Assembly (NCBI GenBank): GCA_018223435.1
Contig: JAGTTO010000001.1
Location: 682,001 to 746,000 of the forward strand
DNA: 64,000 bases
Source: Lachnospiraceae bacterium Marseille-Q4251
GTDB lineage: Bacteria > Bacillota > Clostridia > Lachnospirales > Lachnospiraceae
Direction of reading: 5' to 3'
A program made the position numbers and the translations under genes. The notes beneath the pieces were generated by a model. It worked only from the letters and a program-made list of their open reading frames with translations. It was not told the origin of the DNA and did not search any database. Every line of letters starts with the position of its first letter. Positions within the stretch are counted from its first letter, which is position 1. This document shows positions 17,348-46,775 of the stretch, piece after piece.

Positions 17348-17500
17348 CAGTGAAAATTAAGTTGCTGATACATTGACAATGGATGCTTTCTTCATCTGCA
17401 AGACGGAGTAATGAGGCGTAGCGGTGGCTATGTCGATTGACGACAACGCAGCAGATAAAAAATCAGACAAGTCAAGGTGTCAGTTACTTAGTTTTCACTG
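17348..17500. mobile_element. MITE, copy 1, in the murA 3' end
   Basis: 153 bp with imperfect inverted ends of about 30 bp: CAGTGAAAATTAAGTTGCTG at the left, and CAGTGAAAACTAAGTAACTG on the other strand at the right. The core (GAGGCGTAGCGGTGGC, then CAACGCAG) is shared with the element inside the HEPN pseudogene at 46.1 kb. It encodes no protein. The right end supplies the last codons and stop of murA. Confidence 0.7.
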
Positions 17501-18749
17501 TGCTGCTCTGCATGCAGGCACCCAGAGCGCCAAGATCTCTCAAAAGATCCTCGTAGCCTCTCTCAATATACCCGTCATCCTGAATCAGTGTGGTTCCCTC
17601 CGCTCCCAGAGCGGCCAGAACCAGAGCAGCCCCTCCCCGGAGCTCTTTCGCCCGGACAAAGGTGCCGTGAAGGGAAGAAACGCCCCGGATCAGGGCCCTG
17701 TTCCCTTTTATCTCAAGATCCGCTCCCATCCGGCGAAGCTGAGCCGCCGTCTGGAAACGTGCTTCAAAAATATTTTCCTCAATCTCGCTTTTTCCCCGGG
17801 CCACGGTCATGGCCGAGAGCAGGGCCGACTGAAGGTCCGTCGGAAAGCCCGGATAAGGGCTGGTTTCCACTCTTCCCGCAGGAAGGAAGGCCTCCCTGGC
17901 ATCGAGAAAAATCCCTCTGGGACTCGTGTGAACCACCGCCCCTGTCTTTTCTATAACCTTCAGGACCTCTGTAAGCGTCCCGGTTTCCGCTCCTTCCAGG
18001 AATACCCGGCCTCTGGTGAGCACTCCTCCGAAAAGATAAGTCCCCGCCACAATCCGGTCCGATGAAAAAATAAATTCGCTGTCCTCCAGGCTGGAAACGC
18101 CCTCGATCCGGATCGTCTCCGTCCCGTCCCCTTCGATCCGCGCTCCTTTTCCCCGAAGGAAACGGCAGAGTTCTGAAATCTCCGGCTCTCTCGCCGCTCC
18201 GGAAAGGACCGTTACGCCCTCCGCCAGTACGGCCGCGAGGATCACATTTTCCGTGGCCCCCACGCTTGGAAAAGGAAGGGAAAACTCCGCCCCGGAAAGC
18301 CTCCTGCAGCTGGCCTTAAGCCCCCGCTCCTCCTCCGTAAAGGTCACTCCCATCTCTGAGAGCATTTTTAAATGAAGGTCGATGGGACGTTTTCCGATGG
18401 TGCAGCCTCCGGGATAGGGAAGACAGGCTTCCCCAAACCTTCCGAGCAGACTTCCCAGAAGGATCACTGAGGAGCGCATCTTTTCCCCGAGGCTTTCCGG
18501 AACCCGGTTTCTGTCAAGTCCCGCGGCATCCAGAATCAGAGCATCTTTTTCCACGGTGACACTGCAGCCCAGGCTTCTCAGTATCTCAAGGGTATAACCC
18601 ACGTCTGTGATCCCCGGACAGTTGTGGAGCACCGTCCTTCCTCTGTGGAGCAATGCTCCGGCCAGAACAGGCAGGGCTCCATTCTTGGAACCCTGGATTT
18701 TCACTGCCCCGTCTAAGGGCCTGCCGCCCCTTACCTCATACCATACCAA
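17484..18749 (-). CDS. murA: UDP-GlcNAc 1-carboxyvinyltransferase
   Basis: First committed step of peptidoglycan synthesis: transfers enolpyruvate from PEP to UDP-GlcNAc in the cytoplasm. 421 residues with SKN at 21-23 and the catalytic Cys116 in GGCTIGKRPIDLH, the fosfomycin target. The start is TTG at 18749 with GGGGG seven bases before it. The last codons (STVKTK and stop) come from the inverted end of a MITE, so the native C-terminus has been replaced. The fold is otherwise complete. Repeat elements lie on both sides, in the middle of the division operon. Confidence 0.94.
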   Translation of the reverse strand: MVWYEVRGGRPLDGAVKIQGSKNGALPVLAGALLHRGRTVLHNCPGITDVGYTLEILRSLGCSVTVEKDALILDAAGLDRNRVPESLGEKMRSSVILLGSLLGRFGEACLPYPGGCTIGKRPIDLHLKMLSEMGVTFTEEERGLKASCRRLSGAEFSLPFPSVGATENVILAAVLAEGVTVLSGAAREPEISELCRFLRGKGARIEGDGTETIRIEGVSSLEDSEFIFSSDRIVAGTYLFGGVLTRGRVFLEGAETGTLTEVLKVIEKTGAVVHTSPRGIFLDAREAFLPAGRVETSPYPGFPTDLQSALLSAMTVARGKSEIEENIFEARFQTAAQLRRMGADLEIKGNRALIRGVSSLHGTFVRAKELRGGAALVLAALGAEGTTLIQDDGYIERGYEDLLRDLGALGACMQSSTVKTK

Positions 18750-18773: not shown

Positions 18774-19046
18774 TGATACCTACGAATTGCTCCGCTGCGA
18801 AGCAGCTTACGCAAGGTCTCCGCTCCGCTTCGGTCGGTGCTAAACGTGTGCCACTGGCACACAGCACCTACAAACATTCGAAATCCGCTGATTTACTGCG
18901 TAAATCGCTACTGTCTACGCTCCGCTTCGGTCGGTGCAAAACGAACATCCACTGGATGTTCTGCACCTCATGTTTGGCGGGTCCCAAGTTCAAAAGCCTT
19001 ATCGTGCAAGCACGAACAGCTTTTTGACCTTTTGACCCTGGTATCA
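18774..19046 (-). repeat. modular structured repeat, long copy A
   Basis: 273 bp closed by TGATACC (18774-18780) and GGTATCA (19040-19046), read in the orientation opposite to copy B at 45.3 kb. It contains a long hairpin with apex CGTGCTTGCACG, the string CTTGGGACCCGCC, and two hairpin modules absent from copy B. Each module has an outer stem GGTGC/GCACC and a different inner stem: GTGTGCC/GGCACAC (18846-18862) and GAACATCC/GGATGTTC (18943-18961). It fills the ftsW-murA gap. No gene is supported inside. Confidence 0.75.
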
Positions 19047-19077: not shown

Positions 19078-20154
19078 TCAGCATTTCCGGCTGATCCCCA
19101 GGACCAGCCCCATCTCAGCCAGAAGGAAAAGAATCGAGGTTCCTCCGTAGCTGACGAAAGGAAGGGTGATGCCCGTATTCGGTATGGTGTTCGTGACCAC
19201 GGCCACGTTTAAGATCACCTGGATTGAAATATGGCCCATGACCCCCGCGGCAATGAGGGAACCAAAAAGATCCGGCGCATGGACGGAGACCAGGAAAAAA
19301 CGCCAGATCAGCACCAGAAAGAGAAGAAGCAGAATCCCTGCCCCCACAAGCCCCAGCTCCTCACAGATGATGGAAAAAATCATATCATTCTGTGCCTCCG
19401 GGACAAAGCCCAGCTTCTGGATACTTCCGCCAAGACCCGTGCCAAAAAGGCCGCCGGAGCCGATGGCATAGAGCCCCTGGATCGTCTGAAATCCTTTCTC
19501 GTAGCTCTCCGGGTCCCGCCAGATCGCAATGCGTTCAAGACGGTAGCTCTCAAGCCCCAGAAAGATTCCCATAAAGCCTGCTCCCGCCCCAAAAAGCCCC
19601 ACGAAGGGAAGATAGAACGGACTGGAGACAAAGACCAGAATCACGGCGATGCCAAGGATAATGACGGCAGTGCTGAGATTACTGGTTCCCACGAGACCAA
19701 CGATGGGCAGAATCAGAACCAGGGTCCGGAAAAGCTCCAGCATCCCCTTTTTCTTCTTCTCTCTTCTGCTGATGGTCCGGGCCAGAAATAAAATCACCGC
19801 CGGTTTCGCAAACTCCGATGGCTGGAAGGATAAGGGCCCGAGGCTCAGCCATCGTCTGGAGCCGTTGATCGAAGCTCCCACAAAAAGCACCAGAGTGGAA
19901 AGGACCAGGGACAGAAGATACGCCGCCCCTGCCCATTTTTCCAGATCATGGTAATCCATTTCCGCCACCACATACATGGCAACAACGCCTAAAATGGTAG
20001 CAAAAAACTGTTTTTTAAAATAACTGGCAGGATCGGAGAACTTCACCTGCCCGTTGTATGCACTTGTGCTTAAAAGGACGGTCAGTCCGAAAACAATCAG
20101 AATGACCACCAGTATCAGGAGTGTGTGATCCATCGTACCCTTTTTCCGGTCCAT
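19078..20154 (-). CDS. ftsW: SEDS glycosyltransferase FtsW
   Basis: Polymerises lipid II glycan strands at the septum with the class B PBP. 358 residues with about ten membrane helices. SEDS signatures are visible: GSRRWLSLGPLSFQPSEFAK and, near the end, PNTGITLPFVSYGGTS. It lies between murD (18 bases) and the structured repeat. Confidence 0.95.
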   Translation of the reverse strand: MDRKKGTMDHTLLILVVILIVFGLTVLLSTSAYNGQVKFSDPASYFKKQFFATILGVVAMYVVAEMDYHDLEKWAGAAYLLSLVLSTLVLFVGASINGSRRWLSLGPLSFQPSEFAKPAVILFLARTISRREKKKKGMLELFRTLVLILPIVGLVGTSNLSTAVIILGIAVILVFVSSPFYLPFVGLFGAGAGFMGIFLGLESYRLERIAIWRDPESYEKGFQTIQGLYAIGSGGLFGTGLGGSIQKLGFVPEAQNDMIFSIICEELGLVGAGILLLLFLVLIWRFFLVSVHAPDLFGSLIAAGVMGHISIQVILNVAVVTNTIPNTGITLPFVSYGGTSILFLLAEMGLVLGISRKC

Positions 20155-32437: not shown

Positions 32438-33319
32438 TCAGTATTTCCTCCTGTCCTTTAACTCTTCCAGCATTTCCAGATAGCTCTGATACCGTCTCTC
32501 ACTGATCTTTCCCTCCGCAAGCGCTTCCTTAATGCCGCAGTCAGGCTCCTTGTCGTGAAGGCAGCCCTGGAAGCGGCAGAAGGGCTCAAAAGGAGTGAAA
32601 TCCGGAAAATAATTCTGCAAGTCTTCTTTTTCCATCTCAGGAAGCATCAGGGAACTGAACCCCGGCGTATCCATAAGATAAGTGTCCTCTTCCACATAGA
32701 AAAGCTCGGAATGGCGGGTGGTATGTTTTCCGCGGTCGATCTTCCGGCTGATCTCCCCGGTCTCCATGGAGGCCTGGGGGCAGATCCGGTTGATGAGGGT
32801 GGATTTTCCCACACCGGAGGGCCCGGCCACAGTCGTGGTCTTTCCTTTCAGGATCTCATGGACTGCTTCCATGCCTTTTTCCTGGCCGGCACTGACGAAA
32901 AGCACCTGGCTTTCACAGCCCGCGTAGATCCTTTGAAGCTCTTCCAGCTCTTCCTTTGTGGAAAGATCTTCCTTATTAAAACAGATCACGGTCTTCACCT
33001 TCTGGTATTCCATCATGACCAGAAAATGATCCAGAAGGTTGAAGTTGGGCTTCGGCCGGTTCACGGCGAAGATCACCAACGCCTGATCCACGTTGGCCAC
33101 GGCCGGGCGGATCAGGGTATTTTTCCTGGGAAGGATCTCCATGAGATTTCCTGTCTTCTCTTTCTCATCCAGGATCTCAATGCCCACATCATCCCCCACC
33201 AGGGGCTTGATGCCGTTTTTCCGGAAGATTCCCTTAGCACGGCACTCGTAAATCACATTGTCACGGGTGTGCACATAGTAGAAGCCTCCGATTCCCTTGA
33301 TAATCTTTCCTTTTTGCAT
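32438..33319 (-). CDS. rsgA: small ribosomal subunit biogenesis GTPase RsgA
   Basis: Circularly permuted GTPase that checks 30S assembly. 293 residues: OB-fold start, FNKEDL (G4), GPSGVGKSTLINR (G1), DTPGF (G3), and a C-terminal zinc site with CRFQGCLHDKEPDC. The ATG at 33319 is used because AGGAAG precedes it and the upstream in-frame stretch is repeat sequence. A repeat separates it from prkC. Confidence 0.94.
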   Translation of the reverse strand: MQKGKIIKGIGGFYYVHTRDNVIYECRAKGIFRKNGIKPLVGDDVGIEILDEKEKTGNLMEILPRKNTLIRPAVANVDQALVIFAVNRPKPNFNLLDHFLVMMEYQKVKTVICFNKEDLSTKEELEELQRIYAGCESQVLFVSAGQEKGMEAVHEILKGKTTTVAGPSGVGKSTLINRICPQASMETGEISRKIDRGKHTTRHSELFYVEEDTYLMDTPGFSSLMLPEMEKEDLQNYFPDFTPFEPFCRFQGCLHDKEPDCGIKEALAEGKISERRYQSYLEMLEELKDRRKY

Positions 33320-33346
33320 AAAGTCTTCCTTAATATCATTAAATAT

Positions 33347-33486
33347 AAGGATTGTTCCGTGCTTCGCACTCTCACAATCCTTCCCGGCATTCGCACATCG
33401 CGGAGCGTCCACCCCGCTTTTATGCTCATCCCGGGGCGTGTCCCAAGATCATATATACGCTTTTGTGCAAGCACAAGCGTATATAT
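33347..33486 (-). repeat. structured intergenic repeat, variant C
   Basis: Two hairpins frame this gap: AAGGATTGT/ACAATCCTT (33347-33382), and a 12-bp stem ATATATACGCTT/AAGCGTATATAT (33451-33486) with the inner apex GTGC-AA-GCAC. The long hairpin is flanked by CTTGGGACACGCC on the minus strand, close to CTTGGGACCCGCC in copies A and B. The remaining sequence differs, so it is a related but distinct element. Confidence 0.5.
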
Positions 33487-33498
33487 GACTTTGGTTCA

Positions 33499-35823
33499 CT
33501 ATTTAAAGGGCACGTTATTGTAGTCGTACTGATACTTCACCTCACCGGAACCCGGGTCCAGGATGTAGACGGTGATGGTTCCGCTGCTGTTGGACTCGCT
33601 GCTCCATTTCACGGAGTAGGGGAAGGTGATGACCTCGCCGTTCACCAGAGTCGTGGAACGGCCGTCCTGGGTGATGACCAGCTGTACGGGCTCACCCGCA
33701 TAGACATCCGGAGCCTGGAGGCTCACGTTACAGGAGTACTCTGCGGTTGTGTTTCCTGCCTCTGTGGCGGCCTCGGAGGACGTGGTATTCGTCGTTCCGG
33801 AGCTGGTTCCGTTTCCGGATTCTGCCGGATCTCCGGCTCCCACGCTGACAGTCAGGGTGACGGTACTTCCCGCTGCCGGGGTTTCGTCGATCGGATTCTG
33901 ACTGATAACTGTTCCTGCCGGGATATCAGCGCTGACCTGCTCGGTGATCTGCACCACATAACCGGCAGCCTCAAGGCCTGACTGGGCGTCGATGACACTC
34001 TGGCCAGTGTAGTTTTTAAGCGTCTGCGTGGTGGCGGAACTGGTATCTCCGTCCGCAGGCTGGCTCACCCAGAGTTCAATCGTATCTCCGGCTTTTACCG
34101 TACTTCCTGCCTCGGGGTTCGCGTAAATGACATGATTGCCTTCCACGTTGGGGTTCGTCGTATATTTCACATTGTATTTGATGCCAACCTTGTCGCAGGC
34201 ACTCTGTACGTCGCTTAAGAGAAGACCTGCCACCTCAGGAACGGTGACATCGGTCACACCGCTGCTCACCACATAGTAAACCGTGGTATTTTTCTCCACA
34301 GAGGTTCCTTCTGTCGGGGTCTGGGAGATGATCTGGCCTGCCGCATAATCTGCAGAGGGCTGCTCGCCGCTCTTCACGCCGCCGATGCTTAAGGCATTCA
34401 ATGCCTCCAGAGCCTCTTTTTCAGTTTTTCCGGTCAGGGACGGTACGGTGACAGGAGTGTTTGCCGCCTCCGTTACCTGCTGCAGGTTGTCGCTCTCAGT
34501 CTCGCTGCCTGTCTCGGTTTCCGTGGAGACCTCCGTCGTAGTCTGGTTGAGTTTCGTCTTGTTTCCCTTGAAGTTGAAAAGACCTGCCGCATTTCCCACC
34601 AGCGCCAGGAAAATGCAGAGGATAATCAGACCGATGATGATGCTTCCGATGGTCATAAATTTTTCCAGCTTCGGGCTGATGCCATCCTCATCCTCGTCCT
34701 CATCGGGATCGAAATAATTCTCCTGATAGGGATTTCTCTGGGGCGGGTAGGCGCTTCCCTGACCTGCCGGACGGCCGCCCTGGGGCGGATAAGCGTTTCC
34801 GTAGCCGCCGCCATAACCGGGATTTCCATTTCCCGGAGCTCCTGCCGTGGCCTTATGTACCGGCGGTATGTTAGGCACGCTGTTTCTCTGTGGACTGACC
34901 GGTGTCTCGCCGTAGCTCTGCTTGATCTTGTTCAGCTCATCTCCGGAGATCACCACGGTACGGGCGTTGTTATTAATCGTAGCCAGCTGGACAAAATCTC
35001 CCTCGGGGTTTACCAGGGATTCCTTGAGGTCCCGGATCAGCTCCGTCATATCGTTATAACGGCGGTCGGGACTCTTCTGGGTACATTTGTAAATGATCTG
35101 CACCGTGCTCTTTGGTAGATCCGGCACATATTTTCTCGGGGAGGGAAGCTCCTCCTGAAGATGTTTGATGGCAATCGCCACAGTGCTGTCCCCGTCAAAA
35201 GGCACGGTTCCTGTCAGCATCTCGTAAAGCGTGATGCCCAGGGAATAGATATCACTCTTATAGTCACTGTATCCGCCTCTGGCCTGCTCCGGTGAGCTGT
35301 AATGGACGGAACCCATGACGCTGGAATTGATCGTGTTGGAGCTGGCTGCTCTCGCGATTCCAAAGTCTGTGACTTTTACTTTTCCATCTGTGGAAATGAT
35401 GATATTCTGAGGCTTCACATCCCGGTGAACGATGCCGTTCCGGTGGGCCGCCTCGAGCCCCATGGAGACCTGGATCGCGATGCTGGTGGCCTCGCGGACT
35501 GCAAGCCGTCCCTTCTTGTCAATGTATTCCTTCAGGGTGATGCCTTCCACCAGCTCCATGACAATGTAGCTGATGCCGTGATCCTCCCCGACATCGTACA
35601 CATTGACGATGTTGGGATGGGCGAGTCCTGCCGCCGACTGGGCTTCCACCCGGAATTTGGAGATAAAGGCCTTATCTTCCCGGAACTCCTGCTTCAGCAC
35701 CTTCACCGCCACAAAACGGTTCAGCTTGTGGTCTTTTGCCTTATAGACATCAGCCATTCCGCCGGAACCGATCCGTCCGATGATCTCATATCGTTCCTGT
35801 ATAAACATTCCTTCTTTTAACAT
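33499..35823 (-). CDS. prkC: PASTA-domain Ser/Thr protein kinase
   Basis: Membrane kinase that senses muropeptides or lipid II. 774 residues: kinase domain with G-loop IGSGGMADVY, K41, HRDVKPQN (133-140) and DFG 153-155; a Pro/Gly/Tyr-rich linker; one membrane helix near 395-415; an acidic Thr/Glu stretch; three PASTA domains (about 440-650); and an extra beta-rich C-terminal domain of about 85 residues. The start overlaps prpC by seven bases. Confidence 0.95.
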   Translation of the reverse strand: MLKEGMFIQERYEIIGRIGSGGMADVYKAKDHKLNRFVAVKVLKQEFREDKAFISKFRVEAQSAAGLAHPNIVNVYDVGEDHGISYIVMELVEGITLKEYIDKKGRLAVREATSIAIQVSMGLEAAHRNGIVHRDVKPQNIIISTDGKVKVTDFGIARAASSNTINSSVMGSVHYSSPEQARGGYSDYKSDIYSLGITLYEMLTGTVPFDGDSTVAIAIKHLQEELPSPRKYVPDLPKSTVQIIYKCTQKSPDRRYNDMTELIRDLKESLVNPEGDFVQLATINNNARTVVISGDELNKIKQSYGETPVSPQRNSVPNIPPVHKATAGAPGNGNPGYGGGYGNAYPPQGGRPAGQGSAYPPQRNPYQENYFDPDEDEDEDGISPKLEKFMTIGSIIIGLIILCIFLALVGNAAGLFNFKGNKTKLNQTTTEVSTETETGSETESDNLQQVTEAANTPVTVPSLTGKTEKEALEALNALSIGGVKSGEQPSADYAAGQIISQTPTEGTSVEKNTTVYYVVSSGVTDVTVPEVAGLLLSDVQSACDKVGIKYNVKYTTNPNVEGNHVIYANPEAGSTVKAGDTIELWVSQPADGDTSSATTQTLKNYTGQSVIDAQSGLEAAGYVVQITEQVSADIPAGTVISQNPIDETPAAGSTVTLTVSVGAGDPAESGNGTSSGTTNTTSSEAATEAGNTTAEYSCNVSLQAPDVYAGEPVQLVITQDGRSTTLVNGEVITFPYSVKWSSESNSSGTITVYILDPGSGEVKYQYDYNNVPFK

Positions 35824-44928: not shown

Positions 44929-45068
44929 GGCGGCTTTGGAAGCCAGGAGGAAGCTTTTGTTGAGGGGCGGCTTTGAGAAGCCGTGGGAACTTTTGTTGTG
45001 GGGCGGCTTTGGAAGCCGGCAGGGAACGTAAATGCGAGGGGGACGGCTCCAGGGCCGCCCTCCCCCTC
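44929..45068. repeat. three ~37-bp GC-rich tandem repeats and a strong hairpin
   Basis: GGCGGCTTTGGAAGCC or a near copy starts at 44929, 44966 and 45002, each forming a small hairpin. A large hairpin follows at 45035-45068: GAGGGGGA-CGGC against GCCG-x3-TCCCCCTC. It lies upstream of murE. The murE promoter should be in or near here, but no clear -35/-10 pair was found. No gene is supported. Confidence 0.55.
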
Positions 45069-45095: not shown

Positions 45096-45250
45096 CAAAA
45101 AATATGGGGCTTACGGCAACAGGTAGACATTGTACGTCGGTTGTGGTGTGACAACAGGAAGGATGTGTGGTATGGTAAGTAGCGCAAGCATGATTTATGG
45201 ATGTTTTTCGAAGAATATACAGCCAGCCACCTGACTTGCTACTCACTCAA
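45096..45250 (+). repeat. partial copy of the GGGGCTTACG element
   Basis: Begins with GGGGCTTACGGCAACAGG and continues with CGTCGG and TGTGACAACAGG, matching in order the left part of the element at 46552-46775. The matching right end is missing; copy B of the structured repeat starts just after. Confidence 0.5.
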
Positions 45251-45272
45251 AATAAAAAGTTTCATTATATGA

Positions 45273-45442
45273 TGATGCCAGGGTCAAAAGGTCAAAAAGC
45301 CGTTCATGCTTGCATGATAAGGCTTTTGAACTTGGGACCCGCCAAACATGAGAAAGCAGCGATTTACGCAGTAAATCAGCGGATTTCGAATGTTTATAGA
45401 ATTGCGGGAGCTGCTTTGCAGCGGAGCAATTCGTAGGCATCA
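45273..45442 (+). repeat. modular structured repeat, short copy B
   Basis: 170 bp closed by TGATGCC (45273-45279) and GGCATCA (45436-45442). It has the long hairpin AAAAAGCC ... GGCTTTT with apex CATGCTTGCATG, then CTTGGGACCCGCC, GATTTAC/GTAAATC, and GAATTGC/GCAATTC around GCTGC/GCAGC. It matches copy A throughout but lacks its two hairpin modules. Stem bases that differ from copy A change in pairs. Confidence 0.75.
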
Positions 45443-45517
45443 GTTGGGGGCAAAAGACCTTTTGACCCCAACATCATATGATATGAGTGTCAAAAGACCT
45501 TTTGACATTCATATCAT
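45443..45517. repeat. two adjacent hairpins with CAAAAGACCTTTTG core
   Basis: 45443-45472 (GTTGGGG-x-CAAAA, loop GACC, TTTTG-x-CCCCAAC) and 45478-45517 (ATGATATGA-x-TGTCAAAA, loop GACC, then the complement). The apex is the same while the lower stems differ. The second hairpin overlaps the only usable start of the MNT gene. Confidence 0.6.
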
Positions 45518-45818
45518 TATATATAAATTTTCCCAGGAACTGAAACAAATACTGGGCGATAATCTGGCAAAGGTTATTGTCTACGGTTCGTATGCCAGAA
45601 GCGATTATCGTGATAATTCCGATGTTGATATTATGATCTTGGTCAAAATGTCCGACGAAGAGATCAAAGCTGTAAAAAATGATATTTATGATCTTGCTTT
45701 CGATGTGGAAATGAGTACCGGGATAGAATTATCCCCCATTATCAAAAATGAAAAGCAGTATGAATACTGGGTAGACACTTTACCTTTTTATCGCAATGTA
45801 AGGAATGAGGGGATGTAA
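45483..45818 (+). CDS. MNT nucleotidyltransferase, likely 5'-damaged
   Basis: About 111 residues with the minimal nucleotidyltransferase signature GSYARSDYRDNSDVDIMIL. In MNT/HEPN toxin-antitoxin pairs this protein is the antitoxin that AMPylates the HEPN toxin. The first 13 residues come from a hairpin repeat rather than family sequence, and no ribosome site is seen, so the native 5' end is probably lost. The HEPN partner follows four bases later and is broken. Confidence 0.7.
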   Translation: MSVKRPFDIHIIIYKFSQELKQILGDNLAKVIVYGSYARSDYRDNSDVDIMILVKMSDEEIKAVKNDIYDLAFDVEMSTGIELSPIIKNEKQYEYWVDTLPFYRNVRNEGM

Positions 45819-45821
45819 TCA

Positions 45822-46406
45822 GTGAGTGAAAAGAAAATAGATTTGTGTATATATCGTATTGCAAATGCAATAGAGACTTTAGGAGTCGCTACATTATGCC
45901 TATTACAAAGACTCCATAAACCGCAGTTATTATGCTTCCTTTTATGCCATAAAAGCAGTATTAGCCTTAGATGAAGTAGATTTTAAGCGTCATAAAGATG
46001 CTGTTGCATATTTTAATAAGACCTATGTGGCAACAAGTATTTTTCCAAGAGAACTTGGCAAAAAGCTTGGAAGACTGAAACAAGAGCGTGAAACTAGTGT
46101 GCTGTCTCATTGACTTTCAGTTAAATAACGCAGAATGTTTTTTCATCGACAAGGCGACTGAACGAGGCGATGCGGTGGCATCGTTGAGCGAAGTCAACGC
46201 AGTTCGATGGGAAAACAGGCAAGTTATTTAGCGAAATGTCAATGATACAGTACACTAGCGATTACGATAATTTCTATATCACATCTTTAACAGACGCAAT
46301 GGAACAATATGCAGCAGCAGAGTTTATTATTACCGAAATCAGACAATATTTAAATACCAAAAATATCCCATACATCACGGAGAACTCTTATGAAAAAAAG
46401 AATTAA
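45822..46406 (+). pseudogene. HEPN toxin pseudogene (frameshift plus MITE)
   Basis: Begins VSEKKIDLCIYRIANA. A frameshift near 45890 moves the HEPN motif to another frame (YYKDSINRSYYASFYAIKAV). The frame then runs to KQERETS, where a 157-bp MITE interrupts it. Joining across the element at the duplicated CTAG restores RETSDYDNFYITS and the usual C-terminus to a stop at 46406. Two independent lesions mean the ribonuclease toxin is dead. Confidence 0.85.
46098..46254. mobile_element. MITE, copy 2, inside the HEPN gene
   Basis: 157 bp between duplicated CTAG (46094-46097 and 46255-46258). Ends are inverted: TGTGCTGTCTCATTGAC at the left, TGTACTGTATCATTGAC on the other strand at the right. The core (GAGGCGATGCGGTGGC, then CAACGCAG) matches the copy at 17.4 kb. 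No coding capacity; a transposase elsewhere would be needed. Confidence 0.8.
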
Positions 46407-46605
46407 ATTACTGCTGACGCTCATCGTAGGATTTGCTGTTGCAATGCTGATTATGGGGATTTTTATTTATTTTGGTTATACAAAGGTGTATGAGACGGAT
46501 GTGGAATTGTTTACTGTAAAAATTCTTGGATTGCCTATTTACCAATTGACAAAAATAGGGGGCTTACGTCAACAAGATAATCTCTGTTCGCCGGATAGTG
46601 TATGA
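46390..46605 (+). pseudogene. small membrane protein truncated by a repeat
   Basis: Starts inside the HEPN 3' end (17-base overlap). It encodes a signal-anchor protein (LLLTLIVGFAVAMLIMGIFI) and then YETDVELFTVKILGLPIYQL. From about residue 55 the frame runs into the inverted end of the element at 46552 and soon stops. The native C-terminus is missing. Family not recognised. Confidence 0.55.
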
Positions 46606-46775
46606 CAACAAGTGGCATAGCACGACGAATGCTTTTCAGAGAATATAATATAGGCCTAAACAACCTCTTGATCCTGTTACTCCCAGAACCAAATAGAAAT
46701 TCTTCCTATATAATATGAATCCACACCCACCCGTCATTTCACACACTATTTGCATGACGTAAGCCCCCCTATTTT
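46552..46775. mobile_element. MITE-like element with GGGGGCTTACGTCA ends
   Basis: 224 bp with inverted ends of about 20 bp: AAAATAGGGGGCTTACGTCA (46552-46571) and TGACGTAAGCCCCCCTATTTT (46755-46775). The inside is AT-rich without an open frame. A partial relative lies at 45096-45250. It truncates the preceding membrane-protein gene. Confidence 0.65.

Follow-up and report, generated by a model that had tools for sequence, protein, structure and literature searches.

Copies of the element in the window

The 64,000-nucleotide stretch of the Lachnospiraceae bacterium Marseille-Q4251 genome analysed here (the window) carries a palindromic element within its division operon. The question is what this element is, and whether its fold is selected as RNA or as DNA. 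An earlier note on this DNA had described two copies, A and B, with common closing arms, a long hairpin and a common sequence, and had supposed that they may be part of a known unnamed family. It turned out that such a family exists. Taking a covariance-model score at or above the gathering cut-off of 48 as the sign of membership, we found that Rfam RF01699 ("Clostridiales-1") matches three places in the window, each over the full length of the model: copy B with 128 bits (E-value 6.4e-29), copy C with 119.6 bits and copy A with 57.1 bits (E-value 7e-10). Copies A and B are therefore real, and a third copy, C, had been missed. The note had itself named identity to an Rfam family as a finding against its reading; this identity removes the novelty of the motif and leaves the selected fold standing. 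The RNA-family part is already known, and what the present analysis adds is the transposon nature of the element.

Copy A (18774..19046, minus strand) is located at the ftsW-murA junction, between murA (17484-18749) and ftsW (19078-20154). The part of copy B covered by RF01699 (45273-45442, plus strand) lies where genes are few, beside an NTP_transf_2 ORF. Copy C (33339..33506, minus strand) lies between prkC (33499-35823), whose stop codon (33499-33501) overlaps the end of the left arm of the copy, and rsgA (32438-33412 as listed), in which the Pfam RsgA_N domain begins only at residue 34. The closing arms and the long hairpin are indeed shared by copies A and B, CTTGGGACCCGCC is present in both, and the paired stem changes are in the sequence as described: TGATACC/GGTATCA versus TGATGCC/GGCATCA, and the hairpin TTCGTGCTTGCACGA versus TTCATGCTTGCATGA. 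The closing arms of copy C, TTAAATA/TATTTAA, are complementary to each other, yet unrelated to those of A and B.

Copy A is longer because two foreign modules of about 54 nt sit in its stems P3 and P4. The module, M, is a hairpin (GGTGCTG...CCAGTGG...CGTTTAGCACCGACCGAAGCGGAGCGGAGAC) and occurs on the minus strand at 18913..18967 within P3 (nhmmer 66.1 bits) and at 18815..18868 within the 5' strand of P4 (50.2 bits). It was found in 20 distinct contexts at E-values up to 1, 16 of them within 200 bp of a core match, and additionally by cmscan at locus L035. Most of the strong-scoring copies of the module occupy the 5' strand of P4; genomes G309, G036 and G006 are among those concerned.

Ends and target duplication

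The earlier note placed the end of copy B at 45442. The element actually continues for another 34 bp to a right inverted repeat, and TATGA stands on either side of it. The complete copy B (45273..45476, plus strand) is 204 bp long and consists of the Rfam motif and a right-end hairpin. Using a TIR-pair scan and a repeat search, we located the left TIR, TGATGCCAGGGTCAAAAGG, at 45273..45291 on the plus strand, where it makes up P1 together with the outer portion of P2, and the right TIR, TGATGTTGGGGTCAAAAGG, at 45458..45476 on the minus strand, where it is the 3' arm of the extra hairpin P5. The inverted repeat spans 22 nt (86%). The TIR-pair scan and the sequence itself place the two target duplications at 45268..45272 and 45477..45481. 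The repeat search also returned a 38-bp palindrome with two TIR-like ends (45479..45516) that abuts copy B and may be a minimal derivative. In copies A and C the body is kept and no right TIR was detected; the left end of copy A is intact.

The same architecture is found in other genomes. Genome G036 holds 13 complete copies of its dominant subfamily, in which inverted ends enclose exactly 196 bp. Their flanks reveal the left end TGATACAAGCGTCAAAAGG and, past the Rfam motif, the right end TGATTAGAGCGTCAAAAGG; the duplication is 5 bp long and reads TNNNA. Other genomes have this layout with the ends TGATRCCAGGGTCAAAAGG and TGATGTTGGGGTCAAAAGG. Complete copies are MITEs of about 185-250 bp whose body is the Rfam motif, with TGATRCCAGGGTCAAAAGG at the left end and, beyond the motif, an extra hairpin that ends in ...CCTTTTGACCCCAACATCA. 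The TIRs are TGAT-type, with the end pattern TGAT...GGGTCAAAAGG.

When TIR pairs around a core were sought at 150-300 bp spacing over the fetched loci, 97 pairs were obtained, 184-281 bp in length. A perfect 5-bp duplication flanks 51 of these pairs, versus 21/582 in a shifted-register control, and is missing from 46; at least four of the five positions agree in 62 of the 97. Among the 51 perfect duplications, T is the first letter in 50 and A the last in 49, and the duplication is preceded by A in 47 and followed by T in 47. The target is consequently TNNNA within an ATNNNAT consensus (A-TNNNA-T). Copy B is too short for a transposase gene and contains none. The copies are numerous, dispersed and mostly intergenic: a simple ORF caller placed 128 of 143 unique flanks between ORFs and 4 inside one, and left 11 unclassified.

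Some related elements have quite different ends, TAAAAGTCCC..GACTTTTA and ACAGTTCAGCC..GGCTGAACTGT, and still match the Rfam core (G036 loci L157 and L159; L106; L110). Copies no more than 80 bp apart share their orientation in all 16 pairs, which represent about 10 distinct loci (L155, L244, L326, L222, L223, L096, L157, L091, L292 and L297). At L244, two full copies are separated by 5 bp.

Distribution and insertion sites

We searched for RF01699 in 50 of the genomes behind 80 ftsW loci of relatives. Matches were present in 31 of the 50 genomes, in 24 of them above the cut-off; 12 genomes had at least 13 matches, and one had at least 45. In the family to which G036 belongs, 161 of 299 genomes had a match (130 above the cut-off) and 138 had none, and the controls gave 0/14. 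Copy numbers in this survey are lower bounds, because at most nine candidates per genome were scored. The exact TIR pattern occurs in two viral contigs, and a collection of phages from human faecal samples holds 12 unannotated records with a match to part of copy B. A search of plasmids gave no match to the element.

The insertion of copy A is absent from relatives at the ftsW-murA junction. The gap between the two genes is 328 bp in the window and 11-240 bp in the 50 relatives, out of 80, in which it could be measured; in 46 of these 50 it does not exceed 142 bp. Across the ftsW loci of all 80 relatives, nhmmer found no match at the junction. One of the four longer gaps may hold a diverged copy, because one such copy, elsewhere in locus L035, was missed by nhmmer and found by cmscan. 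Comparison with four relatives suggests that copy A was inserted next to a conserved GCATATAATA, seen in three of them (L003, L004 and L005), which may be a promoter -10-like site. No exact empty site was found: the junction of G006 is without the element, but its flanks are too diverged, and there was none among 51 joined flanks.

Between co-directional ORFs, as called by the simple ORF caller, 48 copies lie on the same strand as the genes and 28 on the opposite one (p = 0.029); a smaller first count had given 19 and 6. This bias is modest. Selection against antisense copies could produce it, and so could a bias of insertion.

Fold and covariation

The earlier note took the compensatory changes between copies A and B to mean selection for a fold. 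To assess covariation, we aligned 35 copies by sequence only, compared them with the Rfam structure and used 500 shuffles. This structure leaves 87.0% of cells paired, and 47 of its 60 pairs have changes on both sides. Cells with a double change number 300, versus 99.9 ± 8.8 in the shuffles, and the covariation score is 0.372 versus 0.131 for the best slid control. The proposal of the note is thus confirmed on many copies.

The body folds better as the sense strand. Of the two strands, the sense strand has the lower predicted minimum free energy (MFE) in 33 of 35 copies (25/26 for the RNase P control); for complete elements the count is 88 of 92. The excess of the sense strand beyond its own dinucleotide shuffles is seen in 31 of 35 copies and in 21 of 26 RNase P loci. 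Copy B including its right end has an RNA folding z-score of -7.33, and copy A one of -5.23. Folds in which the right TIR pairs with more than half of the left one number 1 of 92 for the sense strand and 10 of 92 for the antisense strand, which is a small difference. Conservation is complete or almost complete in the loop GCTTGC and in the internal loop TGAG/CGAA; as RNA, G(CUUG)C and UGAG/CGAA are familiar motifs.

The kind of pair used is unusual. G-U cells are scarce, so that the two sides of a stem vary together and seldom pass through a wobble pair. The 35-copy alignment has 16 G-U cells and 8 A-C cells, versus 162 and 14 in RNase P under the same treatment (Fisher p = 0.0014), and G-U makes up 1.6% of cells in the element versus 9.1% in RNase P. 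This control is a single RNA family of 26 loci, which match the full model below the Rfam cut-off with a mean identity of 0.76. Covarying pairs are present as in structured RNA, and the G-U enrichment seen in RNase P is not; G-U barely above A-C is unlike ordinary structured RNA. Selection as single-stranded DNA, hairpin-templated correction or a strong intolerance of wobble pairs in RNA would each be sufficient to make G-U scarce. In a sequence-only alignment of 63 copies, in which part of P2 is misaligned, G-U does exceed A-C (79:42, p = 0.001). As to the control itself, the RNase P RNA was below the Rfam type B cut-off in all 26 matching genomes of the 60 searched (L261-L286) and may be an atypical form.

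Search for a mobilizing enzyme

The constant 5-bp duplication and the TG...CA ends point to a DDE-type cut-and-paste transposase, which likely acts in trans. We searched for an autonomous partner of the element. No TIR-flanked transposase was found with TIR patterns in 18 genomes or with TIR-pair scans and a duplication test over the fetched loci. None of the 50 places with at most two mismatches in G272, a single contig of 3.37 Mb, was autonomous; G036 has no autonomous element with the ends of its dominant 196-bp subfamily, and neither G309, with 107 end-like places, nor G149 has an autonomous pair of ends. At the IS boundaries examined in G233, G272 and G149, no match to the element ends flanks a transposase.

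Several pairs of facing ends were considered as autonomous elements and rejected. The pair at 1081564-1082376 in G309 proved to be two small derivatives around 0.5 kb. Three other pairs, 1.6-4.1 kb apart, enclose ordinary genes and no transposase: DUF3100 and amidohydrolase genes, and HTH, PEP-utilising enzyme and glycosyl hydrolase genes, in G309 (3261493-3264853 and 1904639-1908743), and a MatE gene in G149 (2817001-2818583). In the last case (L427 3002-4584) the MatE-family gene stands between inverted degenerate ends 1583 bp apart with the flanks TTTTA/TATTA, which agree in four of five positions; the arrangement possibly represents chance neighbours or a composite unit.

We also searched genomes with three transposase profiles, namely PF01797 (Y1) in 50 genomes, PF00665 (rve) in 11 and PF01609 (DDE_Tnp_1) in 15, with G309 outside the PF01797 and PF00665 searches. 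None of these three families is consistently associated with the element: PF00665 is absent from 6 of the 11 genomes and PF01609 from 3 of the 15. Y1_Tnp is unmatched in 7 of 31 element-bearing genomes, many of them drafts, including G018 and G027 with 31 element matches each. The draft metagenome genome G002, which may be incomplete, carries 25 copies and has no Y1, rve or DDE_Tnp_1 match.

Explanations of the element and its fold

The earlier note left open whether the fold acts as RNA or as a hairpin in DNA. The element is a DNA transposon whose body folds strand-specifically, and the scarcity of G-U leaves room for a role of single-stranded DNA. It is conceivable, though rather unlikely, that the fold is selected as single-stranded DNA, so that one strand is a substrate or recognition site for the mobilizing enzyme or for replication-coupled transposition, and the paired changes arise by hairpin-templated correction. 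The GU:AC counts set against RNase P speak for this explanation, as do pair 156-177, which switches between CG and UA (14/21) without an intermediate, and the common orientation of adjacent copies. Against it, the constant duplication length of 5 bp speaks for double-strand cut-and-paste, a Y1 (HUH) transposase is unmatched in some element-bearing genomes, G-U still exceeds A-C in the 63-copy alignment, and the two conserved loops are familiar RNA motifs. In a quite unlikely variant, a transposase of a new kind reads the folded strand, as RNA or as single-stranded DNA, and the fold of this cross-genus transposon is itself part of the transposition machinery. Such an enzyme would explain the covariation with few G-U pairs, the tandem arrays in one orientation and the swappable hairpin module in P4, and also why the three transposase families tested are missing from the 25-copy draft genome.

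Two other explanations fit the ends of the element poorly. Rfam types RF01699 as "Gene; sRNA", and strong covariation and sense-strand folding agree with an independent small-RNA gene dispersed by accidental duplication. This is very improbable, since the motif ends in TIRs and target duplications, one genome holds at least 45 matches while 138 of the 299 family genomes have none, and relatives lack the insertion at ftsW-murA. Moreover, a consensus scan of 45200-45560 for promoters and terminators detected none inside copy B, and one promoter-like and one terminator-like site outside it. The palindromic, intergenic and multi-copy character of the element recalls repeats of the REP/BIME type, with a RAYT (Y1) transposase as the mobilizing enzyme. 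REP/REPIN elements with RAYT are not known to make a target duplication. Here duplications are present and Y1_Tnp is missing from 7 of the 31 genomes, many of which are drafts and may be incomplete, so that this origin is hardly credible.

We therefore consider it probable that RF01699 is, in complete copies, the body of a MITE of about 200 bp that is moved in trans, and that this body folds into a compact RNA in host transcripts with the ends of the element kept apart. Cut-and-paste in trans would spread the copies into AT-rich ATNNNAT sites. On sense read-through in host transcripts, P1 and P2 are predicted to capture the left end and the P5 hairpin the right end, and the sense transcript would thus avoid one long end-to-end duplex. 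The host may thereby better tolerate insertions that fall between co-transcribed genes. The fold is thus predicted to matter in RNA.

Relation to known elements

Clostridiales-1 RNA is listed as a candidate RNA in a table of 2010, as far as the accessible part of that paper goes (Weinberg et al. 2010, PMC2864571). Compared with the Rfam entry, the motif here lies inside TIRs and target duplications, and the right-end hairpin lies outside the Rfam model. In the literature searched, which mostly left subscription journals outside, no description of RF01699 as a MITE was found, and the main text of a 2024 review of prokaryotic MITEs does not mention Clostridi-, Lachnospir- or Rfam.

In the accessible portions of the accounts, the element resembles Correia elements (CREE) and other prokaryotic MITEs in being short, TIR-bounded and intergenic, with a duplicated target and a foldable transcript (PMC10969869, PMC2649163). 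Correia transcripts are described there as cut by RNase III at the TIRs (PMC10969869); in contrast, the sense folds predicted here almost never pair the two TIRs. The target TNNNA and an inner fold conserved by covariation in many genomes also differ from what these portions give for Correia elements and other MITEs. According to the available part of PMC3049150, the pneumococcal BOX, RUP and SPRITE are likewise modular interspersed repeats with a predicted RNA structure, and the modules of BOX are optional; BOX and RUP belong to a different host and, unlike the present elements, fold with their TIRs hybridized together. The Coxiella QMITE1/2 are similar as a MITE that gives rise to small RNAs, whereas QMITE2 has duplications of 7-9 bp and a different host, and the part of the account at hand does not mention a cross-genus conserved fold for QMITE (PMC10969869).

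An Rfam family of no known function thus becomes a mobile element with defined ends, a defined target and copy-number dynamics. Its Rfam matches, which occur in roughly half of the 299 genomes sampled from the family, should therefore not be read as sRNA genes. As RNA-grade covariation lies inside a DNA transposon, the choice between RNA and a DNA hairpin is directly testable, and so are the effects on essential operons of the insertions at the cell-division genes ftsW-murA and at prkC-rsgA.

Other repeats near copy B

Other repeats surround copy B. A second, unrelated inverted-repeat element at 46551-46775 has 36-nt arms (AAAAATAGGGGGCTTACGTCAACA...) with 153 nt between them. Its left arm recurs at 45098-45121, so the island of copy B has such unrelated ends on both sides. 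A hairpin-rich stretch at 46112-46243 with the imperfect ends TTGACTTTCAGTTAAATAAC / GTTATTTAGCGAAATGTCAA was noticed by eye and is unlisted by the repeat search; it is possibly a third type of MITE. The NTP_transf_2 (MNT-like) ORF occupies 45390-45818 and is followed by 45823-46113, with four stops in the one frame tried; the two may be remnants of an MNT/HEPN-type pair. Just before the island of copy B, at 44929-45023, there are three 22-nt repeats (GGCGGCTTTGGAAGCC...) at a spacing of 36-37 nt.
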